A DNA stretch of 64,000 nucleotides from Nocardioides pocheonensis (lineage in GTDB: Bacteria; Actinomycetota; Actinomycetes; Propionibacteriales; Nocardioidaceae): positions 275,662 to 339,661 of the forward strand of contig NZ_RJSF01000044.1 of NCBI RefSeq assembly GCF_003725535.1, read 5' to 3'. Below are positions 18,854-47,674 of the stretch, one piece after another. The notes beneath the pieces were generated by a model. That model worked only from the letters and a program-made list of their open reading frames with translations. It did not search any database and was not told the origin of the DNA. The translations under genes were made by a program, and so were the position numbers. Each line of letters begins with the position of its first letter. The stretch's first letter is position 1.

Positions 18854-18937
18854 GCGCGAGTGGCGGAATAGGCAGACGCGCACGGTTCAGGTCCGTGTGC
18901 CCGAAAGGGCGTGGGGGTTCAACTCCCCCCTCGCGCA
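18854..18937 (+). tRNA. tRNA-Leu (anticodon CAG)
   Basis: The acceptor stem GCGCGAG (18854-18860) pairs with CTCGCGC (18930-18936), with discriminator A at 18937. The anticodon stem is CACGG/CCGTG with loop TTCAGGT, so the anticodon is CAG (18888-18890). The long variable arm (CCGAAAGGGCG region) is typical of class II tRNA-Leu. The T-arm has GGTTCAA. CCA is not encoded. The 3' half is the insertion target of the island array that follows; this copy stays complete and presumably functional. Confidence 0.95.
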
Positions 18938-18943
18938 CGTGAG
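18916..18943 (+). repeat. Attachment core A (tRNA-Leu 3' end), left boundary of unit 1
   Basis: The 28 bases from GGTTCAACTC to CGCACGTGAG are found exactly at 36358-36385 and 47647-47674. They include the 3' strand of the T-arm and the acceptor stem of tRNA-Leu plus 6 bases past the tRNA. A tRNA 3' end repeated downstream is the standard mark of site-specific integration by a tyrosine recombinase. Copy A belongs to the complete tRNA gene. Confidence 0.9.
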
Positions 18944-19175
18944 TAGCCCCGGGTCCTTGTATCCGGGGCTTCGTCCGTATTTCGGTGCGGCTCCTTGGAA
19001 CGGTCACTTGGAATGCCTCGCGGTATTCGGTTGTCGCCGTTGCCGCGGCGTCGCTCGCTCCTCTCGGGTGTGTGGCCGTCTCAGTCACCTAAGTTGTCGC
19101 GGTGCCCGCGGGCGATCAATCCGCTTCAACTTTCTGAAGAATCCCGCAGCTACGGGCACCCATCGGGGTGCATGT
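18944..19175. other. Left end of unit 1 (LE1): iterons and palindrome
   Basis: This non-coding end resembles the left end of unit 2 (36386-36630). The most conserved piece, CGGTTGTCGCCGTTGCCG at 19028-19045, reads on the other strand as two 10-bp-spaced copies of the iteron seen in the right ends (GGCAACGG and ACAACCG). A palindrome-like site, GCACCC (19156-19161) and GGGTGC (19166-19171), lies about 210 bp from core A. Another matching piece is GGGCGATCAATCCGC (19110-19124). I read these as recombinase or excisionase arm sites. This function is inferred from geometry. Confidence 0.6.
18945..18970 (+). terminator. Hairpin after tRNA-Leu
   Basis: AGCCCCGG (18945-18952) pairs with CCGGGGCT (18963-18970), followed by a short TCGTCC run without a long T-tract. 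Related hairpins follow attachment copies B and C. It probably ends the tRNA transcript, and it travels with the attachment core. Confidence 0.65.
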
Positions 19176-19339
19176 CTCCCGAGCCGGTGACAGGGCAGGC
19201 TTTGCCAGCACGCTTGGTGGCGGAGGAGGCGCGTAAGCGGCATGCCTCGTGGTTGACGAGTGAGTCTCCGTCCACCCCGGAGGTTGTGGAAGCGCGCCAG
19301 CGCCACCGTGAAACTCTGATCGTTCGATCTGGGTCCTGA
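19172..19339 (+). CDS. Possible small ORF (55 aa) at the left end of unit 1
   Basis: ATG at 19172 opens a 55-aa frame (MSPEPVTGQALPARL, then EEARKRHASWL and EARQRHRETL). It is charged and helical in its second half. There is no clear ribosome site, and the ATG overlaps the palindrome of the left end. An excisionase-like role would fit the position, but no known motif supports it and unit 2 has no equivalent. It may be noise. Confidence 0.25.
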   Translation: MSPEPVTGQALPARLVAEEARKRHASWLTSESPSTPEVVEARQRHRETLIVRSGS

Positions 19340-19354
19340 GTGACGGCTGGGTTC

Positions 19355-20176
19355 TCACGCGTCGCGCAGAAAGTCCTCGACGAGTGCGGCCGCTGCGTGG
19401 CTCTCGTCGAGGAGGAACAGGTGGCCGGCTCCGTCGATCACTCGGAGCTGGGCTTGGGGGATGAGTGACGCGAGAATTCGGCCGTTGACTGGCCGAGCGA
19501 TGGGGTCGTCACCCCCCGTAATCACGAGTGTGCGCGCTTCCAGCTTGCGTAGCCAAGGCACACTGCTCCACCCGACGACGGCGCACAGCTGCCCGAAGTA
19601 GCCCCACCATGACGGCGGCCGTTGGAAGCCGGCGACCAGCGAACCCTCGCGAGCCGGGTCGAGCCGTGCTCGTCCGCCGTAGAGGTTGCTGGCGACGCGG
19701 CTCGCGTAAGAGGGCGACCAGTACCGCAGCGGGGTGAGCATGTGCACCAGTGCCGAAGGCTTGCCAGGGGGGCCTCCTATTCCGGGGCCGGTGGCCGCCA
19801 GGACGAGCCGGTGGAGTCGCGTCGGAGCGCGTCTGGCGAACTCTTGGGCGACGAACCCGCCGAAGGAGATGCCGAGGACGTGCGCACGGTCGATTTGGAG
19901 GTCGTCAAGGACGCCGACCGCGATGCGCGCCAGGCCTCGCATCCTTCTGGGAGGGAAGACCGCCGGCGTGGCCCCGGCACCGGGCAGGTCGAAGGTGATG
20001 ACCCGGAATCCGCGCGAGACCATCTGGCTTTCGAAGTCTCGCCACAGTTCGAGGCTGGCGCCGATACCCATGATGAGCAGTAGTGGTTCGCCGTTGGTGA
20101 GGCCTCGGACCGAGACCCTGACGTGTGCGCCTCGGATCCGTACCGTACGAATCGCGGCGAGGTTCTCTGAGCTCAT
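19355..20176 (-). CDS. Alpha/beta hydrolase, PHA-depolymerase-like
   Basis: The 273-aa alpha/beta hydrolase has the oxyanion-region motif LLLIMGIGASLELW, the nucleophile elbow GISFGG (Ser), a probable Asp in ITGGDDPIARP and the His in DGAGHLFLLDE. It most resembles intracellular medium-chain PHA depolymerases (PhaZ of pseudomonads), and the directly coupled PHA synthase upstream (ATGA, 20173-20176) supports this. An ordinary esterase is the alternative. It is the last gene of a long minus-strand series that begins at 35879. Confidence 0.75.
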   Translation of the reverse strand: MSSENLAAIRTVRIRGAHVRVSVRGLTNGEPLLLIMGIGASLELWRDFESQMVSRGFRVITFDLPGAGATPAVFPPRRMRGLARIAVGVLDDLQIDRAHVLGISFGGFVAQEFARRAPTRLHRLVLAATGPGIGGPPGKPSALVHMLTPLRYWSPSYASRVASNLYGGRARLDPAREGSLVAGFQRPPSWWGYFGQLCAVVGWSSVPWLRKLEARTLVITGGDDPIARPVNGRILASLIPQAQLRVIDGAGHLFLLDESHAAAALVEDFLRDA

Positions 20177-21867
20177 GTGTCGAGCACGTAGCTGCCAGGG
20201 GCGTCGATCAGCGGGCGAAATCGTGGTGTCCCCAGGGTCGGGGGCGCCGGCCCCATCTTCCCAGAGCGGGCGGCGAGCCACTGGGCGTAGTGGGGCCACC
20301 AACTGCCTGGCCGGGTTTCGGCGGATGCGACGAACTCGGCGGGGGAGGTCGGCTGGTGGGCTGAGGTCTGGAAGCTGGCTTTGGCATTCGTCGGCGGGTT
20401 GACGAGCGCCGCAATGTGCCCGCTGGTGGACAGCACGAACTCCGTCTTGCCGCCGAGGAGTGCAGTAGATCGGTAGCAGTTCTGCCATGGGGTGATGTGG
20501 TCGGTGCGCCCGCCGACGATGAAGGCGTCCGCCGTGATCTTGCTGAGGTCGACCGGGACGCCGAGCGCGGTCGCGTCGCCGGCGGTGACCAGCTTGTTGG
20601 CTAGGGAGAGCTCCAAGAAGTCGCGGTGCAGCTGTGCCGGCATCCGGGTCGTGTCAGAGTTCCAGAACAAGATGTCGAACGCCGGCGGCTTCTGCCCGAG
20701 CAGGTAGTTGTTGACCCAGTAATTCCAAATCAGGTCGTTGGGCCGCAGCCAAGCGAACACCTCGGCAAGGACCGCGCCGTCGAGATAGCCCACACGCTTG
20801 GAGAGGGCCGCCGCTGCAGCAGCCCGCTTGTGATCGACCAGCGCCTGCGCGGTCCCTGCACCCGCCTGGTCGAGGACTGTGACCGCCAGGGTCAGCGAGG
20901 CAAGTTCCCCACCGCGACCGGTTCCCGCCAGGTGCGCCGCGGCCATAGACGCGACGATTCCTCCCGAGCACGTGCCGTGGAGTCCAACGCGTTCGATGCC
21001 GGCGATCTCTCGCGCGGCGTCCATCGCCTCCAGGGCACCGTGGATGTAGGTGTCGAGGTTCCAGTCGGCGTGTCGAGCCGTGGGGTTGCGCCAGGAGATC
21101 ATGAAGACCTGCTGTCCTTGACCGAGCAGGAACTCCACGTAGCTGCGCCCCGGCGCGAGGTCAAGCACGTAGTACTTGTTGATCGTCGGCGGGACCATGA
21201 GCAACGGCACTTCCCGCACCTGCTCGGTGATCGGGGCGTACTGGATGAGCTCGAGAACCGGCGTCCGCAGGACGACCGATCCCTTGGTGGCGCCGATGTT
21301 GGTGCCGACCGCGAACTGGCTACTGTCCACCATGCTCGGGACGCGCGGCCGGCTGGACAGATCGTGCAGGAGGTTGCGCAGACCCCGCCCGAGGTTCGCG
21401 CCGCCGGTGTTGACGACTTCCTTGAGCGCCACGGGGTTCAAGAGCATGTTGTTGGATGGCGCGAGTGCGTCCACGAGGTTCTCGACGAAGAGCCGCACAC
21501 GCTTCTGAGCACGCTCCTCGAGCTCGGCGTCGTCGACCAGTTGCAGCGCCTTCTCCGCTGCGGCCAGGTAGGCCTGAACGGTACGGCGCAGCAGGCCGTT
21601 GTCGGTCCAGGCGGGATCGGAGAAGCGACGGTCGCGACTGGACGCGGAGATGGTGGAGGTGCCGGCGATAACGCGGGTGAGTTCCGCGGCCAGGTCCGCT
21701 AGCCGGCCGCCGGTCGTCCGTGGTCGCCGCGCCAATGCCGCAGCCCATCGGAGTAGCGCGGCGCCCGGCAGCACGTCGGGCACCCCGAGACGGCTGGCGT
21801 TGGCGAGAAGGCTGTCGAGGGGGACAGCGAGCTCGCGCTGGTCGAGCTGGACGTGCACTTGGCTCAT
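20173..21867 (-). CDS. phaC: Polyhydroxyalkanoate synthase (PhaC)
   Basis: The 564-aa enzyme polymerises hydroxyacyl-CoA into polyester granules. The lipase-like box is GTCSGG with catalytic Cys; the Asp is in VGGRTDHITPW and the His in STSGHIAALVNPP. Conserved PhaC features are PPTINKYYVLDL, VFMISWRNP, LDTYIHGALEAMD and DLIWNYWVNNYLLG. At about 560 aa it needs no PhaE or PhaR partner and fits class I/II synthases. It overlaps the depolymerase-like gene and sits in unit 1 of the tRNA-Leu array, so the polyester module appears to be mobile cargo. Confidence 0.93.
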   Translation of the reverse strand: MSQVHVQLDQRELAVPLDSLLANASRLGVPDVLPGAALLRWAAALARRPRTTGGRLADLAAELTRVIAGTSTISASSRDRRFSDPAWTDNGLLRRTVQAYLAAAEKALQLVDDAELEERAQKRVRLFVENLVDALAPSNNMLLNPVALKEVVNTGGANLGRGLRNLLHDLSSRPRVPSMVDSSQFAVGTNIGATKGSVVLRTPVLELIQYAPITEQVREVPLLMVPPTINKYYVLDLAPGRSYVEFLLGQGQQVFMISWRNPTARHADWNLDTYIHGALEAMDAAREIAGIERVGLHGTCSGGIVASMAAAHLAGTGRGGELASLTLAVTVLDQAGAGTAQALVDHKRAAAAAALSKRVGYLDGAVLAEVFAWLRPNDLIWNYWVNNYLLGQKPPAFDILFWNSDTTRMPAQLHRDFLELSLANKLVTAGDATALGVPVDLSKITADAFIVGGRTDHITPWQNCYRSTALLGGKTEFVLSTSGHIAALVNPPTNAKASFQTSAHQPTSPAEFVASAETRPGSWWPHYAQWLAARSGKMGPAPPTLGTPRFRPLIDAPGSYVLDT

Positions 21868-21907
21868 TCGTCATCTTCCTCGGCGAGTTCTGTCGAACGG
21901 GTCGGCT

Positions 21908-22756
21908 TCAACGGGGTCCGTCGACGAAGATGTCGAGTTCCAGCTCGTGTTCGGCCCCGTACTTCGTGAAGTCGGTGACGCCGGCGTCCCTGAGCACCTC
22001 GACATCCAGCAGCGTCCGGCCGGTGCAATGGCTGGCAGGGCGCTGCAGGATCTCCACAGCCGCGTCAGCCACGATGTCTGGTGTACGGGCACGCGCCATC
22101 GCCGCCTGGCCACCGAGGAGGTTCTCGACGGCCGCCGTGGCGATGATCGTCTCGGGCCACAGGCAGTTGGCCGCCACGCCCTGGGGGGCGTACTCGGTCG
22201 CCCATCCGAGGGTGAGGATCGTCATCCCGTATTTCGCCATGGTGTAGGCGGGGTGCCTGCCGAGCCATGCGGGGTTGAAGTTCAGTGGGGGTGCTAGCGA
22301 CAGGATGTGCGGGTTGTCACTCGCGAGGAGGTAGGGCAAGGCCGCTCGGGTGAACAGGTAGGTGCCTCGCAGTTGGATCTGCATCATCAGGTCGAAGCGT
22401 TTGAGCGGCAGGTCAGCGGTGCCAGCGATGGCGAGAGCGGAGGCGTTGTTGATGCAGACATCGATTCCTCCGAACTGCTCGACAGTCTCGCTCACCGCTC
22501 GTTCGACGCAGCTTTCATCCCGGACGTCGCCCACGATGGCCAGCGCCTTCCCGCCTGCTGCTCGGATCTGCTCGGCAGCCGAATGGACGGTTCCGGTCAG
22601 GCGGGGGTCGGGCGTATCGGTCTTCGCGAGGAGGGCGACGTTTGCGCCCTCCCGGGCGGCGGCGATCCCGATCGCCAGGCCGATGCCGCGGCTACCGCCG
22701 GACATGAGCACGGTGCGGCCCGTGAGTTGGCCCTTGGGCTGGTGGTCACGACTCAT
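21908..22756 (-). CDS. Short-chain dehydrogenase, HSDL2-like
   Basis: The 282-aa SDR has the nucleotide-binding motif GGSRGIGLAI, CINNASAL and the catalytic YTMAK. The C-terminal half (LWPETIIATAAVENLLGG) is typical of the HSDL2/AtuG-like subgroup, often linked to fatty-acyl or terpenoid-derived substrates. The substrate here is unknown. It overlaps the substrate-binding protein gene by 11 bases. A 40-base gap separates it from phaC, so one transcript is likely. Confidence 0.85.
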   Translation of the reverse strand: MSRDHQPKGQLTGRTVLMSGGSRGIGLAIGIAAAREGANVALLAKTDTPDPRLTGTVHSAAEQIRAAGGKALAIVGDVRDESCVERAVSETVEQFGGIDVCINNASALAIAGTADLPLKRFDLMMQIQLRGTYLFTRAALPYLLASDNPHILSLAPPLNFNPAWLGRHPAYTMAKYGMTILTLGWATEYAPQGVAANCLWPETIIATAAVENLLGGQAAMARARTPDIVADAAVEILQRPASHCTGRTLLDVEVLRDAGVTDFTKYGAEHELELDIFVDGPR

Positions 22757-23717
22757 CGACGTAGTCCGCGAGCTTGACGGGGTCCTTGAGGAACCCGTAC
22801 TTGGTCATCAGCTCGAGCTCATGCTGGGACGACTCGATCTTCAGGTCGGTGCCGAACGCAGGAAGTTTGGAGGTTCGGATGAGTCCCTCTGGCGCGCCGG
22901 TGATCTCGGCGATAGCGGTAATCAGGGCTTCCTTGTCGCTGCTCGCCAACTGGTTGCCGCGGGCCAGGACCGAGCGCAGTTTGTCGACGAGCTGGGGGTT
23001 CTCGGCCGCGAACTTCGCGGAGACGATGTTGTAGGCCTGGACTGGCTGCTCGCCGTAGGGCTCTGTCATGTTCTCGATGACGGTGTTGGTCTCCCCTGCC
23101 ATGGTCGCCGCCAGCGGGTAGAGCACGTGGCCGGCGTCGATCTGGCCCGAGCGCAGGGCCGCTGGCATTTCGGTCGCCGGGATGAGCACGAACTTGATCG
23201 AGTTCACGTCGACGCCGTCGTTCTCTAGGGTCTTGAGCAGCGCCGCGTGGTTGTTGTTCTGCAGCTGGATGAGGCCAACCTTCTTGCCCTCGAGGTCTTT
23301 CGGCTTGGTGATGCCGCTGTCCTTCATGGACAGGATCGACATGTCGTTGTTGACCATGTAGGTCGTCCCAATGATCTTCAACTTGAGGCCTTGTGCGAGT
23401 GCCTGGGCGAGGTTGCCCGGGTTGAGGGCGCTGAAGTCGATCGTGCCGTTGAGCAGGTTCGGGACGACGTCGGCCGGAGTGCGGAGCTCGACCTTCTTGA
23501 CCTTCAGCCCGCTGTCCTCGAAGTAGCCCTTGTCGAGGGCGAGCTGCCACCCCCCCAGCCCGGCGAACGGCAGCCAGCCGACCTTGAGCTCACCCGACTC
23601 GGACTTCGAGGTGGTGTCGTTGCCACCGCACGCGGTAGCCGCGAGGGCGAGGAGAAGTGCTGTGGCGATGGCGACGAGATTTCGGAGCGGCCGCCTGAAG
23701 GTGCTGCTGGTCAACAT
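22746..23717 (-). CDS. ABC transporter substrate-binding lipoprotein (NMT1/SsuA type)
   Basis: The 323-aa lipoprotein has signal and lipobox LAATACGG (Cys near residue 29) followed by a two-lobed NitT/TauT-type binding domain (LKVGWLPFAGLGGWQLALDKGYF, DFSALNPGNLAQALAQG, KKVGLIQLQ). It delivers an organic ligand to the permease pair at 24741-26359. NitT/TauT systems carry nitrate, sulfonates, taurine, thiamine precursors or aromatic acids; the ligand cannot be read from sequence. Confidence 0.9.
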   Translation of the reverse strand: MLTSSTFRRPLRNLVAIATALLLALAATACGGNDTTSKSESGELKVGWLPFAGLGGWQLALDKGYFEDSGLKVKKVELRTPADVVPNLLNGTIDFSALNPGNLAQALAQGLKLKIIGTTYMVNNDMSILSMKDSGITKPKDLEGKKVGLIQLQNNNHAALLKTLENDGVDVNSIKFVLIPATEMPAALRSGQIDAGHVLYPLAATMAGETNTVIENMTEPYGEQPVQAYNIVSAKFAAENPQLVDKLRSVLARGNQLASSDKEALITAIAEITGAPEGLIRTSKLPAFGTDLKIESSQHELELMTKYGFLKDPVKLADYVDES

Positions 23718-23823
23718 GTCGGTCCTCTTTGGTTAGATGGTGTCCCGCCGAGCTCGGGACGTGGGGTGGTCACCAGGTCGGTGCTGTGGGTGTCCGACTC
23801 GGCTTGGTTGGTGGAGCGTCGGA

Positions 23824-24744
23824 TCAGGAGTCGGGGTCCACGGATCGCTCGGCGACGATGAGCTCCAGCACACGCGTGCGGAGGTCGATGAAGCCGCCCA
23901 GTGCCTTGGTGTGGATCTGGTCGCGAGGCCGGGGAAGGTCGACATCGATCGTGGTGCGGACCCGCGTCGGGCGGTGGCTGAGAGCGATGACGCGGTCACC
24001 CAAGTAGACCGACTCGTCGATGTCGTGCGTGACGAGGATGATGGTCATGCCGGTCCTAGCGTGCACGTGGAGCAGGAGGTCCTCAAGGTCTCCTCGAACC
24101 TGCGCATCCAGGGAAGCGAAGGGCTCGTCCATCAGGAGCACGTTGGGCTGGAAGGCGAGGGCGCGGGCGATCGCCACCCGCTGCTGCATGCCCCCGGACA
24201 ACTGCCAGGGGTACTTGTCGCCGACGTCGGCGAGGCCTACCTCGGACAACGCCTTGGCCGCGCGCGCGGCCAACTCCCGCTTTGGCAGACCTGTGCCGCG
24301 CAGGGGGAACTCGACGTTGGCGCGCACCTTCTGCCATGGCATCAGGGACCGGGTGTACTCCTGGAACACCATGGCGACACCCGGGGTCACCCCGGAGGCG
24401 GGAGTTCCGTTGACGCGGACCTCCCCCGTGGTGGGGCGGAGCAGTCCCGACAGCGCCTTGAGCAGCGTTGTCTTGCCGCACCCGGAGGGTCCGACGATCG
24501 ACAAGAACTCCCCGGCACGCGCTTGGAAGCTGACGTCGCCAATCGCTGTGACAGCGCTTCGTCCTCGTCCGTATGTCACGCCGAGGTGGCGTGCCTCGAG
24601 GACGACGGGGCGCTCTTGGGCGTTCCGCGGCGCGGTCGCGGCCGAGTTCTGCTCCGAGGTCGGCTCGGAGGCGGTGGCGATGGGCATGGCGAACCCGCTT
24701 TCGGTAGGGGTGGGGCGGTCGTCGCGGTCGGAGGCCCGCATCAT
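23824..24744 (-). CDS. ABC transporter ATP-binding protein (NitT/TauT type)
   Basis: The 306-aa ATPase has Walker A GPSGCGKTT, Q-loop FQEYT, signature LSGGMQQRVAIARAL, Walker B VLLMDEPF and the H-loop THDI. An N-terminal extension of about 45 residues precedes the domain. The ATG at 24744 overlaps the permease stop (ATGA), which favours this start; an internal MPIATASEP start is possible. It powers uptake with the two permeases upstream. Confidence 0.92.
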   Translation of the reverse strand: MMRASDRDDRPTPTESGFAMPIATASEPTSEQNSAATAPRNAQERPVVLEARHLGVTYGRGRSAVTAIGDVSFQARAGEFLSIVGPSGCGKTTLLKALSGLLRPTTGEVRVNGTPASGVTPGVAMVFQEYTRSLMPWQKVRANVEFPLRGTGLPKRELAARAAKALSEVGLADVGDKYPWQLSGGMQQRVAIARALAFQPNVLLMDEPFASLDAQVRGDLEDLLLHVHARTGMTIILVTHDIDESVYLGDRVIALSHRPTRVRTTIDVDLPRPRDQIHTKALGGFIDLRTRVLELIVAERSVDPDS

Positions 24745-25520
24745 GGGGCCGTCCGTTCCAGCGAGCGGTACTGCCGGTGCCACCCGAGCAGCACGCGCTC
24801 CGCGAGCACGACGGTGCAGGTCAGGACGGACCCAACGAGGCCGATCATCAACAGCCCCGACCACGTCTCCTGAATGTCGAAGGACTGCTGGGCACTGATC
24901 ACGAGGTAGCCGAGGCCGGAGCTTGAAGCCAGCATGTTGGCGACGATCACGGTGCCGACCGCAGCCGCAACTGCGATGCGGACGCCCGCCATGACCTGCG
25001 GCATCGCGGCAGGGATGGTCACCCGGAGGAGGCGCCGGCGCGCTGACACGCCGTAGACGCGGGCGGTGTCGATCATGACCCGGTCGGCGGCGCGCACGCC
25101 GTCGGAGGTCGAGACGAGAATGGGCCATGTGGCGGCGAAGGCGACAAGTGCCGCCTCCATGCGCTGTCCGGGACCTAGGACGACGAGGCCGATAGGCACC
25201 AGGGCCACTACGGGCATGCTTCGGAGGAACTCAGTGATGGGTCGCAGATCACGACGGGCGCGCGCCGAGAGGCCGAGCGCGACGCCGGTGGCGATGCCAG
25301 TCACCACGGCTACCGCGAAGCCGACCCCCAAGGCCCGAACCGTCGGCAGCAGGTCGTCTTCCATTCGTTCGGTTGTCCATGTCTGCTGGAACCCATCGAC
25401 GATGTCCGATAGCGGTAGGAAGTACGGCGACGTGCTGCCGGCGCTGAGGATCCACCATGCGGCCACGAGGGTGACTGGGGCGGCGAGGCTCGTCGCGGGG
25501 CCGATCAGCTTCTTGATCAT
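24741..25520 (-). CDS. ABC transporter permease (NitT/TauT type)
   Basis: The 259-aa inner-membrane permease has about six spans and the EAA-type loop DTARVYGVSARRRLLRVTIPAA, which contacts the ATPase. It forms a heterodimer with the next permease. Coupled by ATGA overlaps on both sides. Confidence 0.9.
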   Translation of the reverse strand: MIKKLIGPATSLAAPVTLVAAWWILSAGSTSPYFLPLSDIVDGFQQTWTTERMEDDLLPTVRALGVGFAVAVVTGIATGVALGLSARARRDLRPITEFLRSMPVVALVPIGLVVLGPGQRMEAALVAFAATWPILVSTSDGVRAADRVMIDTARVYGVSARRRLLRVTIPAAMPQVMAGVRIAVAAAVGTVIVANMLASSSGLGYLVISAQQSFDIQETWSGLLMIGLVGSVLTCTVVLAERVLLGWHRQYRSLERTAP

Positions 25521-26359
25521 GACTGCGCCCCTCTCTGTGACACGTGCCAGCGCAGCGTCCGTCGTTCCAATGTGGTGAGCCCTAGCGCTACGACCAGGCC
25601 GATCAGTCCTGTCAGCAGCACCCGGGCGTAGAGCAGCGGGCGGTCTCCAACGACCGCGGCCCGTGCCATCTCCGCGCCCAGGCCCTCACCGCCGACGATC
25701 AGCGAGGTAGCGATCGCGAAGATGAGAGCGAAGGTGCCCGAGAGCCGCAGACCTGTCGACAGGTACGGCAGACAACTGGGCAGATCCACCAGGAGAACCC
25801 GGCGGATGTGGCCGACGCCGTACACCTTGGCCGTCTCGATGGCGACGGGGTCGACGTCGCGCATCCCGTACATGGCTTGGATCAGGAGCGGCCAGAGTGC
25901 AGCCAGCACGACGAAGGAGACCGTGAGGTCCTGTCCGATGCCGTAAATGAACAGCAGGATGGGCAGGGCGGCGATGCCCGGGATGGTCCGGACGAACTCC
26001 AGCGTCAGGTACGACATTCGGTAGGAGATTGACGACGCCCCCAGCAGCATCCCGACCGGGACGCCGATAGACACAACCACGAGCATGCCGAGAACCCATG
26101 CCTCCATCGACGCGCCGACCGCGGCCCAGAGCTCGGATGTCTGCAGGTCGCTGACGAGTGCCTGCAGGATGGCCGTGACCGGAGGGAAGTCCTCGCGGGG
26201 CAGGACGTCCAACACCGATACCGCCTGCCAACAGGCGGCCAGCGCCAATACGACTAGTGCCGGCTCGGCCCAACGGGACCACCGCCTCACTGCGCCGCTC
26301 CTCATCCCGCCCGTGCGCGGGTCGGCACTGGCGGTCGACACGACGGCCCGGGTGCTCAT
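25517..26359 (-). CDS. ABC transporter permease (NitT/TauT type)
   Basis: The 280-aa permease has six spans and the EAA loop ETAKVYGVGHIRRVLLVDLPS. It resembles the downstream permease in order of motifs (PGIAALPILLFIYGIGQ, VVLAALWPLLIQAMYGM). Its ATG at 26359 overlaps the stop of the acyl-CoA synthetase, so uptake and activation are made together. Confidence 0.9.
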   Translation of the reverse strand: MSTRAVVSTASADPRTGGMRSGAVRRWSRWAEPALVVLALAACWQAVSVLDVLPREDFPPVTAILQALVSDLQTSELWAAVGASMEAWVLGMLVVVSIGVPVGMLLGASSISYRMSYLTLEFVRTIPGIAALPILLFIYGIGQDLTVSFVVLAALWPLLIQAMYGMRDVDPVAIETAKVYGVGHIRRVLLVDLPSCLPYLSTGLRLSGTFALIFAIATSLIVGGEGLGAEMARAAVVGDRPLLYARVLLTGLIGLVVALGLTTLERRTLRWHVSQRGAQS

Positions 26360-27951: not shown

Positions 27952-27982
27952 GGGGATTCCTCGCAGGCTTCGGGGCTGGTGC

Positions 27983-29740: not shown

Positions 29741-29818
29741 GAGTATCGCTGCTCTCTCGTCGGGGTGTGATCACGGTCTCAATCGCTCGCGCGGGCAGCA
29801 ATGTCTGCGACGCCAGTG

Positions 29819-29849
29819 TTCGGCGGCTGTGTGTGTTCTCCGCTACACT
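29819..29849 (+). promoter_or_regulatory. Candidate promoter giving a leaderless regulator mRNA
   Basis: TACACT at 29844-29849 is a good actinobacterial -10. It ends only 7 bases before the GTG at 29857, so transcription would begin at or next to the start codon and the mRNA would be leaderless. The -35 is weak (TTCGGC at 29819-29824, spacing 19). Confidence 0.45.
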
Positions 29850-29856
29850 CGCGGGA

Positions 29857-36630: not shown

Positions 36631-36826
36631 GGGCCGGGCGGATCGAATGGCGTCACGGCGGATACAGCCTCGACGGACCTCGTCGATCACCGGGTGCATC
36701 GTTGCCCGTGCCAAGGACGGCGTTCGGCGGAACGCATTCAGATCGGGACCGAGGCCCGGAACGGACACCCGTGAGGAGCGGCTCGGTGCCCGCGCGGGCT
36801 TTTCCGCACGCTTTGTGGCGAACCCG

Positions 36827-37852: not shown

Positions 37853-37926
37853 GTCGGTGGTTCGTCCCCTCGTCGGATGGCGCGATTCGAGTGCCGGTCC
37901 CTCGCGGCCCAGCGTTCGAGGTCCAA

Positions 37927-38027
37927 TCGTTTCGAACGACCCTACCGCAGGACTGTTGACAAGGCGTGACGCCGGTCACTACGTTGCTCGAAACGTTTAG
38001 TCGAAACGTTTGGACACATCGTTTCGA
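37927..38027 (+). promoter_or_regulatory. Promoter and LacI-type operators of the glucoside cassette
   Basis: TTGACA (37956-37961) and TACGTT (37980-37985) with 18-base spacing form a strong promoter for the rightward genes. CGAAACGTTT occurs at 37989-37998 and 38002-38011, a direct 13-base step just after the -10. CGTTTCGA lies at 38020-38027 and the palindromic TCGTTTCGAACGA at 37927-37939. LacI-family operators with a central CG and this form are common, so repression by the divergent LacI protein is likely, including self-control. Confidence 0.75.
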
Positions 38028-38074
38028 ATGGCAGGTCGGGATGTCGATTCGAAGCCGTCAACAGGAGGACGAAC

Positions 38075-39382: not shown

Positions 39383-39536
39383 CGCTCGCCACGACCGGGA
39401 ACGCCCCGCGCATCCACACGACGGATCGCAGCGGACGTTCTCAGAGGACGGGGACTGCTCCAAGCTCCCAATCCGGACCACTCCGGTGAGCGGTCCCCGT
39501 CCTTCCCTCTCCAGCCATCCGTCACGAAGGACAGCC

Positions 39537-40469: not shown

Positions 40470-40474
40470 CAGCC

Positions 40475-41404
40475 ATGACGCTCACCAAGGAGGCGCGCAC
40501 CGTCACCATCGGCAGTCCACGCGTAGGGCGCAGAGCGCGTACTGGCTCGAGCCCCAAGCGCGCGGGCAGCGGCTCGCGCCATCGCCGCGGAGCGACCCGT
40601 TGGGTCACCCTGGGACTGCTCGCACTCGCCGCCGTCCTCGCACTGTTTCCGTTCATCCTGGCCGCCGTCAACGCGGTCAAAACGGCTGGCGACTATGCCG
40701 CACACGGTCCGCTGGCGATGCCCCACTCGTTCGACCTCAATGGCATCAAGACCTTCTGGCAGAACGTCGACTACACGAACAAGCTCACCAACAGCATCAT
40801 CATCAGCGGCTCGGTCGCCGTCGTCGGGACGCTGATCAGCTTGTTCAATGCCTACGCGCTGGGCATCGGGAAGGTCAGGGCACGACGATCACTCCTGCTG
40901 CTGCTGCTCCTTGCCACGACGGTTCCACAAGAAGCGCTCATCTACCCGCTGTACTACATGGCGAACAACACGGGCCTGTACAACACCAAGCTCGTCGTCA
41001 TCATCATCAGCTCCGTGATGTCGAGCGCGTTCGGCACCTACCTGATCGCCTCCACGCTTTCTGAGTTCCCCCGGGGGGTCTTGGAGGCGGCCCGGATCGA
41101 CGGAGCGAACCGCTGGCAGGTCCTGCGCATGATCGTTGTGCCGATCATCTGGCCCACCCTGACGGTCCTCATGACGTTCTTCTTCATCTGGACCTGGAAC
41201 GACTTCTTCCTTCCGCTGATCATGCTGCCCTCGAATGACAACCAGACGGTCTCCGTAGCCATGGGCAGCCTTCAGGGGCAGTACACGAGCTCGCCCACAG
41301 GCCTGGCCGCAGCGTCGTTGATGGGTCTCCTCCCCGCGGTCGCGTTCTTCCTGATCTTCCAGCGAACGTTGACGCGAGGAGCCGTGGCCGGCGCCGTCAA
41401 GTGA
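40475..41404 (+). CDS. Sugar ABC transporter permease (MalG/UgpE type)
   Basis: The 309-aa permease has six spans and the EAA loop EAARIDGANRWQVLRMIVVPI. The N-terminus is a long basic tail (PRVGRRARTGSSPKRAGSGS). It starts 5 bases after the first permease. GTG of the glycosidase follows 40 bases after its stop. Confidence 0.92.
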   Translation: MTLTKEARTVTIGSPRVGRRARTGSSPKRAGSGSRHRRGATRWVTLGLLALAAVLALFPFILAAVNAVKTAGDYAAHGPLAMPHSFDLNGIKTFWQNVDYTNKLTNSIIISGSVAVVGTLISLFNAYALGIGKVRARRSLLLLLLLATTVPQEALIYPLYYMANNTGLYNTKLVVIIISSVMSSAFGTYLIASTLSEFPRGVLEAARIDGANRWQVLRMIVVPIIWPTLTVLMTFFFIWTWNDFFLPLIMLPSNDNQTVSVAMGSLQGQYTSSPTGLAAASLMGLLPAVAFFLIFQRTLTRGAVAGAVK

Positions 41405-41444
41405 TCGCTTCAACCTCCCTCGAATACCAGAAAGGCACCACAAC

Positions 41445-43127
41445 GTGGCCCAGCCCACACCAGCCCACACCTCTCTTCACGACCAAGACCCGGACGCCTG
41501 GTGGCGCACGGCGGCGGTGTACCAGGTCTACATCCGCTCGTTCGCGGATGGGGATGGTGATGGGATCGGCGACATCGCGGGATTGCGTGCCCGGCTGCCC
41601 TATCTGGCTGAACTCGGCGTGGACGCGCTCTGGATCAACCCGTGGTACCCGTCGCCTCAGGCGGATGCGGGTTACGACGTCGCCGACTACCGCGGCATTG
41701 AACCGACGTACGGGACCCTTGCCGAGGCGGAGGCCCTGATCGACGAGGCGCATGCAGCGAACCTGCGGGTGATCCTCGACATCGTTCCCAACCACACGTC
41801 TTCCGCACACCGCTGGTTCCAGACGGCGCTTGCGGGTGATCAGGCCGCCCGGGCGCGGTACATCTTCAGGCCAGGCCGCGGCGAGCGCGGCGAGTTTCCT
41901 CCCAACGACTGGCACAGCCAGTTCGGCGGGCCCGCATGGACCCGGGTGTCCGATTCATACGGAACCCCAGGCGAGTGGTACCTGCACCTGTTCGCACCCG
42001 ATCAGCCAGATCTCAACTGGGAGAACGGAGAGGTTCGCGACGAGTTCGAGGACGTCCTCCGGTTCTGGTTCGACCGAGGCGTCGACGGATTCCGCATCGA
42101 TGTGGCACACGGGCTGAGCAAGACCCCAGGACTCCCGGACGCCGGCCTCCGCGATCGCGGTGCCCTCGACACAGCGGCGCATCCGGCCTGGGACCACGAC
42201 GACGTGCACGAGATCTATCGCAGCTGGCGCAAGATCGCGGACTCATACGCTCCGCCGCGAATCTTCGTCGCCGAGTCATGGGTGCCCACGAGCGAACGTC
42301 TGGCCCGGTACCTGCGTCCCGACGAGCTGCACCTCGCCTTCCAGTTCGACTTCCTGCAGGCACCTTTCCGCGCGGACCACCTGCGCGCGATCGCCGATGA
42401 GGCCATGAATGCCGTCGCCGACGTCAGCGCTCCCAGCACCTGGGTGCTGTCCAACCACGACGTCGTCCGGCACGTGACCCGCTATGCCCGAACCCAACCC
42501 GACCACCTCGTCGACAGGGTCTGGGAGCAACAGCGGTGGGCGACAGAGACACCCGACCTGGAGCTCGGGGTGCGCCGGGCCCGCGCGGCTCTCATGATGG
42601 TGCTCGCACTTCCCGGCAGCGCGTACCTGTACCAGGGCGAGGAACTGGGACTTCCCGAAGTTGAGCACATCCCAAGCGACCGACGGCAGGATCCCGTCTT
42701 TGAGCAATCGGGCAGGGCGCTCCCTGGGCGCGACGGCTGTCGCGTTCCGCTGCCGTGGGTGGGTTCCGCGCCCTCCTACGGGTTCAGCGCAGCAGATGCG
42801 GCGGCCGAGCCTTGGCTTCCCCAACCGGGCGACTGGGGACCTCTCACGGTGGCAGCCCAGGACCAGGACCCCGCCTCGACCTTGGGGCTGTATCGGGAGT
42901 GCCTGCGCCTACGCCGACAGGTCCTGCTGAGCAAGCCCTTCGCGTGGGTTGACTCCCCGAAGGAAACGCTGGCGTTCCGTCGGGGCGACGTCGAGTGCTG
43001 GCTCAACAGCGGTGCCGAGGTCGTACGGCTGCCGGCCGGGAACGTCCTCCTGAGATCCACGCCGGAGGGCGAAGACGGCGTGTTGCCCCCGAACTCGGCG
43101 GCGTGGGTGATGACGGTTGTCCCGTGA
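41445..43127 (+). CDS. GH13 alpha-glucosidase
   Basis: The 560-aa glycoside hydrolase family 13 enzyme has the four conserved regions: DIVPNHTS, GFRIDVAHG (nucleophile Asp), IFVAESWV (acid/base Glu) and LSNHDVVRH (Asp). The loop EHIPSDRRQDPVFEQSG fits oligo-alpha-glucosidases such as maltase, isomaltase or trehalulose hydrolases. No signal peptide, so it acts on imported sugar in the cytoplasm. GTG start at 41445 with GAAAGG upstream. Confidence 0.93.
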   Translation: MAQPTPAHTSLHDQDPDAWWRTAAVYQVYIRSFADGDGDGIGDIAGLRARLPYLAELGVDALWINPWYPSPQADAGYDVADYRGIEPTYGTLAEAEALIDEAHAANLRVILDIVPNHTSSAHRWFQTALAGDQAARARYIFRPGRGERGEFPPNDWHSQFGGPAWTRVSDSYGTPGEWYLHLFAPDQPDLNWENGEVRDEFEDVLRFWFDRGVDGFRIDVAHGLSKTPGLPDAGLRDRGALDTAAHPAWDHDDVHEIYRSWRKIADSYAPPRIFVAESWVPTSERLARYLRPDELHLAFQFDFLQAPFRADHLRAIADEAMNAVADVSAPSTWVLSNHDVVRHVTRYARTQPDHLVDRVWEQQRWATETPDLELGVRRARAALMMVLALPGSAYLYQGEELGLPEVEHIPSDRRQDPVFEQSGRALPGRDGCRVPLPWVGSAPSYGFSAADAAAEPWLPQPGDWGPLTVAAQDQDPASTLGLYRECLRLRRQVLLSKPFAWVDSPKETLAFRRGDVECWLNSGAEVVRLPAGNVLLRSTPEGEDGVLPPNSAAWVMTVVP

Positions 43128-43299
43128 CGGGGTCGCTCACGAACAGTCCCGAGCATGTGCCGGAGGCGCCGCTCGGGCAGACGCCGACGCTCAAACACCG
43201 GCAGGGCGTTGCTTGGTATCCGACCCTCAGGAGGATCAGATGAGGCACGAATCACGATGGGGCCCGGACCGTTTGATCGCATCGACCGGCTCTCTTCGA

Positions 43300-43488
43300 A
43301 TGGCTCCGGTCACGATGAAGGACGTCGCGGCCGCGGCCGGCGTCAGCATCAAGACTGTTTCTCGCGTCGTCAACGGTGAGGACCAGGTGAGTCCCGGAAC
43401 CAGGCAGGTTGTCGAGGACGCGGTCCTGCGCCTTGGGTATGTGAGGAATGAACACGCAGCCGCTCTCCGGCGCACGGTGGACCGGTAG
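43300..43488 (+). pseudogene. Truncated LacI-family regulator (DNA-binding part only)
   Basis: The frame from ATG 43300 encodes a normal LacI headpiece (VTMKDVAAAAGVSIKTVSRV, GYVRNEHAAALRR) and then stops at 62 aa. The sugar-binding domain is absent; after the stop no matching frame continues. It is a broken regulator left between the GH13 and GH3 genes. It could still bind DNA weakly, but LacI headpieces need the rest for dimerisation. The bases 43489-43703 hold no convincing gene, only a minus-strand open frame of uncertain meaning. Confidence 0.8.
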
Positions 43489-43703
43489 GCATGGCCGTTG
43501 TTGATCACCGCGGACCGCACCGTGCGACCGCTGCCGTTGGAGACGGGGGTGTTCTCGTCCCCCGGCTGCTGAGACACCACCCCGCGCGGGACCACGAGAG
43601 CGCCGAGCTCGGACCGGGCCGGTGACGATGTTCACGATGGAGGCGCGCGCGGGTCCCGGCGTAGCGGCACCACGACCAGGACGATGTGAACCTCAGGAGA
43701 AGC

Positions 43704-46007
43704 ATGCACCTCAACGCCCCGACGACCGTCGATGCGTCGGTCTACCTCGACCCGGCTGCGGCGGTGGACGAGCGTGTCGAGGACCTGCTCGCACGGATGA
43801 CTCTGCCGGAGAAGGTGGGTCAGATGCTGCAGCTGGACGCCAGGCAGGACCTGGTCGACACCGTGCAGACTCGACTGGCCGGCTCGGTCATCCACGCCTC
43901 CCCGACACGCATCGGGGAGGCGATGGAGCTGGCCCGCGGCACTCGGCTCGGCATCCCGCTGCTGTTCGCCGACGACTGCATCCACGGTCACTCGTTCTGG
44001 CCAGGGGCGACGATCTTTCCCACACAGCTGGGGATGGCATGCTGCTGGGACCCCGCGCTGCTCGAGCAGATGGCCCGGGTCACTGCGGTCGAAGTCGCCG
44101 CAACGGGCATCGTCTGGACGCTTTCGCCGGTGCTGTGCATCACCCGCGACCTGCGGTGGGGTCGGGTCGACGAGACGTTCGGAGAAGACCCGTTCCTCAT
44201 CGGCGAGCTCGGCGCAGCGATGATCCGCGGATATCAGGGCTACGGCCTGACCGACCCGACCGCCATCTTGGCCTGTGCCAAGCACTTCGCGGGCTATTCC
44301 GAGACCCAGGGTGGGCGAGACGCGAGCGAGGCCGACCTGAGCCCGCGCAAGCTGCGCTCGTGGTTCCTGCCGCCCTTCGAGCGAGCCGTCGAGGCCGGGG
44401 CCAGGACGTTCATGCTCGGCTATCAGTCGATTGACGGGGTCCCGGTCACGGCGAACCGCTGGCTTCTGAGCGACGTGCTCAAGCGGGAGTGGGGCTTCAC
44501 GGGCACGCTCACCACCGACTGGGACAACGTCGGGCGCATGGTGTGGGAGCAGCAGGTATGCGCAGACGACGTCGAGGCGGCATCCGTCGCCGTCCGGGCA
44601 GGCAACGACTTCGTCATGAGCACTCCCACCTTCTTCGAAGGCGCCCTCGAGGCCGTGCGCCGCGGGCAGCTCGACGAAGAGGAAATCGACGAAGCGGTGC
44701 GCCGCATCTTGCGGCTGAAGTTCGAGCTGGGCCTGTTCGAGAACCCGCGGGCCCCGGATCCTGAGCGGCAACGGGAGGTGATCGGGTGCGCCGAGCACGC
44801 TGACCTGAACCTCGCGGTGGCGCGCCGGTCCCTGGTGCTGCTGCGCAACGAGGGTGTGCTGCCGCTCGAAGGCGGACTGAGCTCGGGTGGTCAGGGTCGC
44901 GCCATTGCGCGCGGGGCGGCCCGCACCGTGGCGGTGATCGGTCCCAACGGAGACGATCCCCAGGCCATGCTGGGCGACTGGGCCGGGGCGTCGGGCCAGA
45001 CCGACTGGATGCCCGAGGGACACCCGCGCGGGTCCGTTGAGACCGTGCTCGACGGCTTCCGCGCCGTCGTGCCCACCGACTGGTCTGTTGCTCACGCGCG
45101 AGGGTGCGAGATCGAGGTCCTCGTTCCCGATCCCGCCGGCCCATTTCTCCCCGATGGCCAGCCCCGGCCGCCGATCTTCAGCCCTGCTCCCGTCGACCAG
45201 GACCTGCTGCAGCAGGCGGTCGCGGCGGCCCGGAACGCTGACTACGCCGTCGTGGTGGTCGGCGACACCATCGCGTTGACCGGTGAGTCGTGCTCGACCG
45301 CCACCCTCGACCTGCAGGGCGGCCAGATCGCACTGCTGGACGCGGTCGCCGCCACCGGGACGCCCATGATCGTGGTGCTCGTCCAGTCCAAGCCCAGCAC
45401 GCTGCCGACCTCTGCTCTCCAGGCTGCGGCGATCGTCGAGGCGTTCAACCCCGGCATGCGCGGTGGGCGCGCAATCGCGGAGCTCGTCCTCGGGCTCATC
45501 GAGCCCAGCGGTCGGTTGCCGATCTCGTTCGCGCGTCACGTCGGCCAGCAACCGGTCTACTACAACCAGGTTCGTGGTCAGCACGGCGACCGCTATGCCG
45601 ACCTCACCCAGGATCCTCTCTTCGCGTTCGGAGAAGGACTGAGTTACACCACCGTCAGCTACGACCAGTTGATCCTCCACACGGAGATCGTCTCGGCTGC
45701 TGGCGTCATCGAGGCGACGGCCGTGCTCACCAACACTGGGGGCCGCCCCGCCCTGGAAACCGTGCAGGCCTACATCAGTGACCTGACCACGAGCGTCACC
45801 TGGGCCGAGCAGGAGCTGAAGGGATACACCCAGGTGGAGCTACCTCCGGGGGAGACCCGAGAGGTGCCCCTCGCCATACCCGCTACGCGGTGCTCGCTGG
45901 TCGATGCCGCAGGCCGTCGCGTTGTCGAACCCGGTGCCTTCGAGCTCCGGGTCGGCCCGAGCTCACGGCGCCGCACCCACCTCGTCGCCGAGTTCCAGAT
46001 CTCATGA
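43704..46007 (+). CDS. GH3 beta-glucosidase/xylosidase
   Basis: The 767-aa glycoside hydrolase family 3 enzyme has the N-terminal barrel (MTLPEKVGQMLQ, GIPLLFADDCIHG, WGRVDETFGEDPFL, CAKHFAGYSETQGGRD), the nucleophile Asp in TLTTDWDNV, the second domain (SLVLLRNEGVLPL) and a fibronectin-III-like C-terminus (ELKGYTQVELPPGETREV). It removes terminal beta-linked glucose or xylose. No signal peptide. ATG 43704 has AGGAGA 5 bases upstream; a GTG at 43686 would add six residues. Confidence 0.93.
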   Translation: MHLNAPTTVDASVYLDPAAAVDERVEDLLARMTLPEKVGQMLQLDARQDLVDTVQTRLAGSVIHASPTRIGEAMELARGTRLGIPLLFADDCIHGHSFWPGATIFPTQLGMACCWDPALLEQMARVTAVEVAATGIVWTLSPVLCITRDLRWGRVDETFGEDPFLIGELGAAMIRGYQGYGLTDPTAILACAKHFAGYSETQGGRDASEADLSPRKLRSWFLPPFERAVEAGARTFMLGYQSIDGVPVTANRWLLSDVLKREWGFTGTLTTDWDNVGRMVWEQQVCADDVEAASVAVRAGNDFVMSTPTFFEGALEAVRRGQLDEEEIDEAVRRILRLKFELGLFENPRAPDPERQREVIGCAEHADLNLAVARRSLVLLRNEGVLPLEGGLSSGGQGRAIARGAARTVAVIGPNGDDPQAMLGDWAGASGQTDWMPEGHPRGSVETVLDGFRAVVPTDWSVAHARGCEIEVLVPDPAGPFLPDGQPRPPIFSPAPVDQDLLQQAVAAARNADYAVVVVGDTIALTGESCSTATLDLQGGQIALLDAVAATGTPMIVVLVQSKPSTLPTSALQAAAIVEAFNPGMRGGRAIAELVLGLIEPSGRLPISFARHVGQQPVYYNQVRGQHGDRYADLTQDPLFAFGEGLSYTTVSYDQLILHTEIVSAAGVIEATAVLTNTGGRPALETVQAYISDLTTSVTWAEQELKGYTQVELPPGETREVPLAIPATRCSLVDAAGRRVVEPGAFELRVGPSSRRRTHLVAEFQIS

Positions 46008-46066
46008 CCGGCCTCAGCTGGGCTGGTCGCTCGACCCGGTTCGACCCGTGAACAGCGAGGCCCACG

Positions 46067-47047
46067 ATGACCCGTCCTTCCACGCCCCTGGGGCTCGTCG
46101 CCGACATCGGTGGCACGAACGCTCGCTTCGCGCTCGCGGATCCGCGGACCAGGCTGCTGTCTCAGGAACTCACGTTGCCGACCAGCTCGGCGCGAAGGTT
46201 TGTCGAGCTTGTCGAGGACTATCTCGCCAAGGTCGGCGCCGACTCGGTCGATGCTGCGTGCTTCGCGATCGCCGGTCCGGTCAGCGGCGACCGCTGCACG
46301 CTGACCAACGCCGAGCTCGACTTCTCCATCGAGGAGACGAAGCGTGACCTCGGACTGAGCACGCTGCTCGTGGTCAATGACTTCGCCGCCGCTGCCCGGT
46401 CGATCCCTGAGCTGGGTCCGCAGGACCTGTTCCAGGTCGGAGAGGTTCGCCTCGACCTCGCGCGTGGTGCGGTCGCCGTCGGCCCCGGCACCGGGCTCGG
46501 TGTGGCGACCATCCTCCCGGATCACACGGGGTGGCGCGTCCAGCCCGGTGAAGGCGGACACGTGGCACTGGCGTGCCTCCACGAGGACGAGCTGGAGGTC
46601 GTCCGTGCGCTGCGCAAGAGCTGGGGCTATGCCAGTGCCGAAATGGTGCTCTCGGGACCGGGCCTGGTCCGCCTTTACGGGGCGCTCGCCGAGGCGCACG
46701 GCACCAGCGCAGTCGCTGACGTGCGGCCCGACGAGATCGTCGAACGCGCGCTGTCGAGCACGGATTACACGTGCGTGGCGACTCTTGGGATGTTCTGTGA
46801 GCTGCTCGCCACGGTCGCCGCGAATGCTGCTCTCACGACGGGGGCGACCGGTGGTGTGTTCCTGGCCGGGGGGATCGTCAAGAGGTTCCCCGAATTCCTG
46901 GCCCAGAGTGGCTTCCGTGAACGCTTCACCTGGCACCCTCACGCGGGCACGTACCTCGATCAGATCGCCACGGTGATCGTTATGGCCCCGGAACCGGGAC
47001 TCACCGGAGCTCTCCAAATCCTCGCCGATCACGAGCCCGCACGATGA
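46067..47047 (+). CDS. glk: Glucokinase of the Glk (PF02685) family
   Basis: The 326-aa kinase has VADIGGTNARFAL (phosphate-binding), AIAGPVSGD, TLTNAELDF, VVNDFAAAAR, GPGTGLGVA, EGGHVAL and a late GGIVKRFPEF. This is the hexokinase-type Glk common in proteobacteria and cyanobacteria; most actinobacteria use ROK glucokinases, so its presence suggests cassette cargo from elsewhere. It phosphorylates the glucose released by the GH13 and GH3 enzymes and closes the pathway. Confidence 0.9.
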   Translation: MTRPSTPLGLVADIGGTNARFALADPRTRLLSQELTLPTSSARRFVELVEDYLAKVGADSVDAACFAIAGPVSGDRCTLTNAELDFSIEETKRDLGLSTLLVVNDFAAAARSIPELGPQDLFQVGEVRLDLARGAVAVGPGTGLGVATILPDHTGWRVQPGEGGHVALACLHEDELEVVRALRKSWGYASAEMVLSGPGLVRLYGALAEAHGTSAVADVRPDEIVERALSSTDYTCVATLGMFCELLATVAANAALTTGATGGVFLAGGIVKRFPEFLAQSGFRERFTWHPHAGTYLDQIATVIVMAPEPGLTGALQILADHEPAR

Positions 47048-47259
47048 AATGGATCCTCGCCAGGCAGGACGCCGAGGCAGCGGACTCCGCGGCTTCCAGC
47101 CTGGTCCTCGTCCGTGGCAGTGTCGTTGGCCGCGCCGTCAACAGCGAGCAGATGCGCAGAGTGGGGGTCTGCGCGATGCGCCGACTGTGCGGCCCCCGAA
47201 TTTCGGTCCGGTTCTTGTGAGAATCCATCCACCAGGGAGAGGACTGGTGTGAGTTCCTG

Positions 47260-47470
47260 ATGGCTGCAGCGAAGAGGTCGAGCCCGGAGCAGATCGTGGC
47301 GTGGTCGGTGATGCGGAGAAGCTGCAGCTCCAGCGGTCGACGGTCCCTCAGGGTGCAAGAAGACTTGGGGTCAGCGAGCAGACGTTCTACCGATGGCGCG
47401 CCAAGTACGGCGGGTTGAAGGCGGACGAGGGGTCCGGCTGAAGAGGCTTGGAGCAGGAGTACGCGCGGCG
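47260..47470 (+). pseudogene. IS3-family transposase OrfA remnant
   Basis: The start reads MAAAKRSSPEQIV. After a frameshift another frame reads ARRLGVSEQTFYRWRAKYGG and LKADEG, a typical IS3 OrfA helix-turn-helix, and then a piece like LEQEYARR. Several frameshifts and a stop destroy it, and no OrfB remains. It lies at the right edge of unit 2, just outside RE2, and shows past transposon activity there. The bases 47048-47259 contain no other gene. Confidence 0.75.
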
Positions 47471-47489
47471 GTTCACGGTGCAGGCTAGG

Positions 47490-47646
47490 GTGGCCGCACC
47501 AGCAACCGGATTGGCTCAACGCAATATCGGCTGGTGCACCCCTGGGGTGCACGCCCCCGAGGTAACGGGAGGCAACCGGAGGCAACGGGAGCTCGGTTTC
47601 ACGCTCGGGCCGGCGGTTCGCGCGTGATCGAGCGTGGTGGTCCTAC
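47490..47646. other. Right end of unit 2 (RE2): palindrome and three 10-bp iterons
   Basis: This is the counterpart of RE1. The palindrome GTGCACCCCTGGGGTGCAC is at 47534-47552, 95 bp from core C as in RE1. Iterons AGGTAACGGG, AGGCAACCGG and AGGCAACGGG occupy 47560-47589, ending 58 bp from the core. The match with RE1 continues through CGTGATCGAGCGT and GGTCCTAC up to the core. Confidence 0.75.
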
Positions 47647-47674
47647 GGTTCAACTCCCCCCTCGCGCACGTGAG
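47647..47674 (+). repeat. Attachment core C, right boundary of unit 2
   Basis: This is the third exact copy of the 28-base tRNA-Leu 3' end core. To its left is RE2. To its right the shared hairpin follows, but not the LE iterons, so the DNA beyond is not another copy of the same element type. From 47705 to 47850 no gene is seen. Confidence 0.92.

Follow-up and report, generated by a model that had tools for sequence, protein, structure and literature searches.

Integrase-free cassettes stacked at a tRNA-Leu(CAG) gene of Nocardioides pocheonensis are probably mobilised by related integrase-bearing elements

How did two blocks of unrelated metabolic genes come to lie one behind the other at a single tRNA gene, with no recombinase gene of their own? 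The question is raised by a stretch of 64,000 nucleotides from Nocardioides pocheonensis (GCF_003725535.1, contig NZ_RJSF01000044.1, positions 275,662 to 339,661; hereafter the window), in which a tRNA-Leu(CAG) gene is followed by two units of 17.4 and 11.3 kb, each bounded by copies of the tRNA 3' end. Our comparison with related genomes suggests that these units are probably non-autonomous integrative cassettes, similar to cis-mobilisable elements (CIMEs), which are moved by the tyrosine integrase of a related element.

The repeat that bounds the units, here called the core, is a 28-bp sequence (GGTTCAACTCCCCCCTCGCGCACGTGAG) composed of the last 23 bases of tRNA-Leu(CAG) and the next five. 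An earlier note on this DNA had reported three exact copies, which the sequence confirms; they are spaced 17,442 and 11,289 bp apart (Table 1). When the 378 bases about core 2 were used to search the organism's own genome (4.92 Mb in 50 contigs), the three cores were the sole matches (E<=0.001). The GC content is 0.682 in unit 1 and 0.666 in unit 2, and 0.725 and 0.720 in the flanks. Besides the core, a left end (LE) of about 235 bp and a right end (RE) of about 135 bp are conserved in each unit. The right ends (36223-36399 and 47512-47688) share 90% identity across 177 nt, core included, and the left ends (18990-19133 and 36436-36580) are alike in blocks of 72-75% identity, in agreement with the earlier claim that both units share one arrangement of their ends. 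The LE of unit 1 comprises a terminator-like hairpin, a conserved block and a palindrome-like sequence, GGGCACCC..GGGGTGCA, at about 19154-19174, and the RE of this unit contains the palindrome GGTGCACCCCTGGGGTGCAC at 36244-36263. In the LE of unit 2, an inexact copy of a promoter-like motif is found at about 36527-36565 on the reverse strand, together with the palindrome-like GTGCGCCCTCGGGGGTGCAC at about 36611-36630. The two LEs are 66% identical to each other, and each is closer to the LE of another genome; one is therefore not a recent duplicate of the other. At the sequence level, core, LE and RE correspond to the retained attL and attR attachment sites of a CIME.

Table 1. Positions in the window of the integration target, the cores, the two units and their ends
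Feature	Position	Strand	Basis
tRNA-Leu(CAG), integration target	18854..18938	+	ARAGORN
Core (attachment repeat) copy 1, equal to the tRNA 3' end	18916..18943	+	
Unit 1, integrase-free, 17.4 kb	18944..36357	none	Pfam content, no recombinase found
LE of unit 1	18944..19177	+	LE profile match 18916-19177, E 1.2e-58; profile built in part from this copy
Promoter-like motif TGATCG-N-TAGGTGACTGA in the LE of unit 1, facing the core	19081..19118	-	Pattern match G000:C43:294742-294779(-)
RE of unit 1	36223..36357	+	RE profile, E 1.8e-48
Core copy 2	36358..36385	+	
Unit 2, integrase-free, 11.3 kb	36386..47646	none	Pfam content, no recombinase found
LE of unit 2	36386..36637	+	LE profile, E 1.3e-60
Transposase-like fragment between the cargo and RE of unit 2	47186..47464	+	Contains a stop; named by reading the sequence alone
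RE of unit 2	47512..47646	+	RE profile, E 2.5e-48; palindrome 47533-47552
Core copy 3, distal boundary	47647..47674	+	
Probable displaced native tRNA terminator	47671..47717	+	Alignment to the G078 tRNA 3' flank

The genes of the units were taken as mechanical open reading frames (ORFs), so their starts are uncertain. Pfam matches in unit 1 comprise a hydrolase, PhaC, SDR, an NMT1-type ABC transporter, an AMP-ligase, an S15 hydrolase, a GAF/PucR regulator, an HpcH/HpaI aldolase, a CoA-transferase III, a metallo-lactamase fold and a cyclase, and those in unit 2 comprise LacI, a sugar ABC transporter, GH13, GH3 and a glucokinase. By these matches the gene content of the two units is unrelated, as had been claimed from the sequence (polyester and acyl-CoA catabolism in one, glucoside use in the other). 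No recombinase, relaxase or Rep family was found in the 21 proteins of both units (Pfam, 1e-5; a 94-aa ORF at 32458-32742 was outside the scan), and none of the 14 Phage_integrase matches of the genome lies on the window contig. In addition, the only ORF of the window units matched by a panel of 57 integrases was a translation of the tRNA region at 18897; apart from this same translation in unit 1, the panel matched nothing in any of the 14 integrase-free units described below. The earlier statement that neither unit has an integrase, relaxase or replication gene is thus upheld; an integrase inside one of them, which would have spoken against cassettes of this kind, was found in neither. Neither integration nor transfer genes were found in the window units, in agreement with CIMEs, and the units do not have the integrase of their own that defines an integrative and mobilisable element (IME). 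None of the set TraB, Rep and integrase of actinomycete integrative and conjugative elements (AICEs), and no phage family, is among their Pfam matches. The cargo of neither unit was found as a block in 335 genomes of the family, with one or two candidates per genome scored; the matches listed span one or two genes each at 65-77%, apart from one of 85% to the transposase-like fragment, which is itself 81% identical to DNA within the integrase-bearing element of genome G202. The same search, a weak test at that depth, revealed no ancestral copy of either gene block without repeats.

We then looked for the ends in genomes of the family. The 378 bases about core 2, compared with 294 genomes, matched bare tRNA genes too. 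The RE alone was found in 22 of 341 genomes at E<=1e-6, the own genome included, representing four of 26 genera and no other genome of the same genus, and the LE alone in nine of 335 in a DNA search at E<=1e-4, again including the own genome; both counts are lower bounds, with mostly two candidates scored per genome, and the LE search missed copies in G256, G284, G300 and G272 that a profile detected. A profile search of the fetched DNA revealed 34 RE copies in 25 regions, so that the sites with core and end motifs for which the earlier note had proposed a search do exist in relatives. A tRNA-Leu(CAG) gene lies within the same fetched stretch in 13 of the 25 regions, and none is in the stretch in the other 12. 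Past the core, a full LE follows in 10 RE copies and a partial match, mainly to core and terminator, in 17; the remaining seven have none. Full LE copies number 15 in 11 genomes, 14 of them in one piece and one, in G012, in two pieces. In the 17 RE copies that one pattern matched, the element GGTGCACCCC.GGGG.GCAC precedes the core by 93-95 bp. Twenty-two units were delimited, eight of which were chosen for carrying an integrase; the other 14 are integrase-free, and eight of these start with a full LE. Genome G288 has an array of four units. Searches for the RE in plasmids (blastn) gave no match, and its exact pattern had 0 matches in IMG/VR viral_contigs. Two smaller structures were also observed: a miniature unit of about 400 bp with a partial RE between two cores beside the tRNA (G212:C14:57554-57978), and an LE-like block without a core past the last core of an array (G300:C4:67395-67528), perhaps the relic of an older unit.

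The relatives also contain candidates for the missing recombinase. In G079, G165, G178, G200, G202, G242, G256, G272 and G284, tRNA-Leu(CAG) is adjoined by an integrase of 433-454 aa, and eight integrase-bearing elements with a homologous RE were delimited at this tRNA gene, that of G012 among them. The G165 integrase belongs to PF00589 (Pfam), the tyrosine integrases, and is 83-89% identical to eight other copies; those of G079, G178 and G256 are 99.8-100% identical. Damaged copies occur in G012 (in two pieces), G291 (fragments) and G034 (cut by the contig end). Relatives of the integrase at E<=1e-80 are present in 24 of 288 family genomes, and in phage and plasmid records no match reaches 60% identity. 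The window REs are 89% and 91% identical to the RE of the G079/G256 element; the REs of the elements I_G165, I_G242 and I_G202 are less like them, with best matches to any RE of 80, 78 and 66%. A relaxase is present in these three elements (TrwC family in I_G165 and I_G242, a homologue in I_G202), and I_G165 also encodes two small HTH_17-like proteins, of which one passes the Pfam cut-off and the other falls just short of it. The earlier note had called for an integrase-bearing relative with the same ends. This expectation was borne out for the RE at tRNA-Leu(CAG) but not for the LE: the integrase-bearing elements have a different, short LE followed by the integrase gene. The direct repeats GGGCGCAC and GGGTGCAC are present in eight of the integrase-type left ends compared, and G165 and G034 have variants, in a comparison that left out G202. 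Beside tRNA-Leu(GAG) we also observed an integrase, 74% identical to the G165 protein and accompanied by a relaxase homologue (L188, G200:C81:35001-55000), a change of target within the family, and, in Nocardioides sp. PD653-B2 (G291:C4:56425-57154), integrase fragments with a truncated RE nearby, a decaying element.

Two integrase-free units of the relatives have evidently moved between species recently, the different-species status of the compared genomes resting on collections that hold one genome per species. One is U7 of G256 (L189, G256:C87:940001-949000), an integrase-free unit of 7.5 kb with homologues of IetA, IetS and AbiTii, which is shared with G284. It is 98.5% identical over 7,720 bp to its counterpart there, U9, and the chromosome stretches left of the tRNA are 76-87% identical between the two genomes. 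On the right, identity stops at the core, and the elements that precede U7 and U9 measure 27 and 113 kb and differ in most of their content. The other is U8 (L190, G178:C25:130001-140500) of Nocardioides sp. ChNu-153 (G178), also integrase-free, with homologues of QatABCD and a kinase gene. This Qat unit matches N. abyssi SOB72 (L219) at 100% identity across 7,679 bp, up to the core, and the adjoining 8 kb of N. abyssi (L228), which contain the unit start and the right part of an integrase-bearing neighbour, are 99.99% identical to G178. The U7/U9 case fits a unit moving alone, and the Qat case fits movement as a composite. In addition, an integrase-bearing element is shared by G079 and G256 at 98.7-99.95% in two blocks (20.7 and 4.2 kb), the edges of which lie at the tRNA and the core.

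On the reading that we consider most probable, each cassette would consist of LE, cargo and RE bounded by the tRNA-Leu(CAG) core, and the helper tyrosine integrase would come from a relative that uses this tRNA gene too and resembles an IME or an integrative and conjugative element (ICE); some such relatives encode a MobF relaxase and HTH_17-like small proteins as well. The helper integrase would recognise the core and the GGGTGCAC-type end repeats and join core to core, which would lead to excision or insertion of a cassette. New cassettes would enter at the tRNA core or at the core left by an earlier one, giving head-to-tail arrays, and the integrase could act in trans or, where units travel as composites, in cis. 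We infer the action in trans, the use of the palindromes as arm sites, the role of the motif and the conjugation route. The earlier proposal of cis-mobilisable elements moved by a recombinase in trans is supported by the relatives as far as mobilisation is concerned, while a composite in cis fits the N. abyssi case.

Several points weigh against movement by a helper. The LEs of helpers and of integrase-free units differ, so that helper action on the latter is something we infer, and excision with formation of circles is likewise a prediction. Units U5, U6, U11, U12, U13 and U14 have no full LE, and the RE of U14 is partial only; eight of the 15 full LEs open delimited units, and behind the other seven no far end was located. 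The first 4 kb of the elements preceding U7 and U9, with the integrase, are 84-85% alike, and the two units diverge over about the first 30 bp past the left core before identity rises. In N. abyssi the integrase-bearing neighbour is shared too, and the unit could have moved there in cis. Finally, the search of the own genome for a helper integrase gave distant, partial matches only, the best at 37% over a part; because no close relative was found there, the window array may now be stranded.

A further link between cassettes and helpers may lie in the LE, whose reverse strand reads TGATCG-N(18-26)-TAGGTGACTGA. In eight whole genomes this motif had six exact matches, five in LEs and one in I_G242, and the reversed control had 0; no exact match was found in three of the eight genomes (G079, G202 and G178) or in the window's second LE. 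A host-wide promoter as its source is ruled out by this distribution. In I_G242 the motif lies upstream of a small ORF that resembles, by reading, the weaker HTH_17-like ORF of I_G165, and looser forms (profile E 3e-4 to 1.7) are found upstream of similar ORFs in G200 and G202 and, in G079, upstream of what we take to be a SAF-domain operon. In form the motif resembles a regulator site, or a regulated promoter, that belongs to this family of elements and has been kept in the LE, facing the core, and we favour it as a candidate site for the small helix-turn-helix protein of the helper. When the LE was compared with the region upstream of the small helper gene, the motif was common to both, and the bases after it were not clearly homologous. 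The conserved block of the integrase-free LE was not found beside the core in the fetched integrase-bearing elements, and this LE is not clearly derived from their left end, while the RE is homologous to theirs. A single origin of this LE, which was then retained as cargo was exchanged, is probable; the presence of the motif in LEs of unrelated units speaks for it. Past the motif, many LEs contain an AGGAGG-like sequence and then codons of the ACG CCG CAG type, possibly a remnant or leader frame without a standard start codon.

Could the units instead be former integrase-bearing elements that lost their integrase and transfer genes singly and now move only in cis as composites? CIMEs provide a precedent for such decay and accretion (PMC5704250, PMC8369830). 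Besides the Qat unit, N. abyssi and ChNu-153 have in common the right part of an integrase-bearing element, the broken integrase of G291 represents an intermediate state, and an integrase-free unit of G288 is 94% identical to the G256 integrase-bearing element over about 1.6 kb at the right end. Independent decays would not yield the LE block that 15 LEs share and that was not found beside the core in the fetched integrase-bearing elements, and the common unit U7/U9 stands behind preceding elements that differ in size and most content, and we consider this explanation unlikely. Far less probable still is that the units are fixed islands, old inert insertions whose repeats were kept through their overlap with the tRNA and terminator: the conservation of RE and LE extends beyond the tRNA overlap and the divergence of two related units between species amounts to 0-1.5%, although the lack of a detected helper integrase in the own genome agrees with inert islands. 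The least probable of all, to the point of being negligible, is that the core repeats arose by chance or assembly and the blocks are ordinary chromosome. No point in its support was found; the 177-bp right-end repeat, the same arrangement in other genomes and the drop in GC speak against it, as does the failure to find the cargo as blocks in the 335 family genomes at the depth used.

Movement by helper integrases also permits a broader interpretation, which we regard as possible and advance tentatively, namely that integrase-free satellites of tRNA-Leu IMEs and ICEs form an integron-like collecting system on a larger scale, for operon-sized cassettes of metabolism and defence. One tRNA site, one travelling integrase family and standard ends, an LE with a helper-type promoter or excisionase-binding motif and an RE with an arm palindrome, would then allow exchange between species without mobility genes in the cassettes. 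The cargo of the window agrees with the earlier idea of collecting metabolic cassettes, but related units hold Qat or Iet/AbiTii genes, so the description as purely metabolic is too narrow. Integron gene cassettes, with their attC sites and IntI, serve here as an analogy only. Recombinase-free units stacked between att repeats are also known from the ccr-less elements in composite islands of the staphylococcal cassette chromosome, a serine recombinase system.

The kind of element is known. CIMEs have lost integration and transfer genes and kept attL and attR (PMC5704250), and those beside ICESt1-type ICEs in Streptococcus resemble the window units in gene loss, kept att sites and tandem accretion; TR1 of Streptomyces scabiei has likewise been termed a CIME (PMC8369830). 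In contrast to these, the integrase-free units of 11 genomes share an LE that is unseen at the left end of helpers and have unrelated cargo, and one unit is common to two species though the neighbouring elements differ. In Dehalococcoides, 15 islands at ssrA without an integration module have been suggested to be CIMEs (PMC3146451); as far as the available text goes, they resemble the window units in their tandem position at one RNA gene and their metabolic cargo, whereas they depend on a serine recombinase and no separate LE lineage is mentioned, and here we find a tyrosine integrase and defence cargo as well. For Streptomyces, PMC9513070 describes defective AICEs that accrete with AICEs, with mobilisation by a neighbour proposed. 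These share with the window units an actinobacterial host and a tRNA site, but the defective AICEs keep traB, and in the window units no transfer gene was found. I_G165, I_G242 and I_G202 have the same tRNA target and a homologous, more distant RE, but have an integrase and a relaxase. A search of the literature on mobile elements of Nocardioides and Nocardioidaceae yielded no description of such a system, though one may exist beyond the search. The suggestion that the arrangement may be undescribed in this group agrees with this search for Nocardioidaceae, with the reservation that the kind of element and its accretion are already in print. The apparent novelty lies in integrase-free cassettes that occur across the family, carry metabolic or defence operons, have moved between species and share an LE of their own, whose promoter-like motif was matched elsewhere in the eight genomes only within an integrase-bearing element. 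Island finders based on integrases would miss such units, so that counts of transferred catabolic and defence operons would come out too low for Nocardioides and its relatives, and the conserved ends provide a simple signature for finding them. The near-identical natural cassettes in two species, together with a candidate helper integrase with a defined site, also offer a system for studying recombination in trans.

The target site was compared with genomes of the same genus by blastn, tblastx being too noisy for synteny. Synteny left of the tRNA was seen in five of six regions compared, and to the right no shared DNA of at least 100 bases was found between the window and the five left-syntenic regions past the first bases after the core. 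The terminator-like tRNA 3' flank of G078 matches 39 of 40 bases from 47671 (counted by eye), with alignment scores of 36.5 at core 3, 34.5 at core 2 and 23.5 at core 1. This is compatible with insertion of the units between the tRNA and its original flank, core 2 being nearly as good a match. In G084, G107, G110 and G081 the core is followed by different sequences, which speak neither for nor against a displaced terminator. G060 matches at the RE and core only, and was dropped as an empty site on account of having no ARAGORN tRNA and no left synteny. Lastly, we observed that the cyclase-family genes at 34881-35879, at the right end of unit 1, and at 47854-48828, just past the distal core, are alike, with 75-76% identity in blocks.

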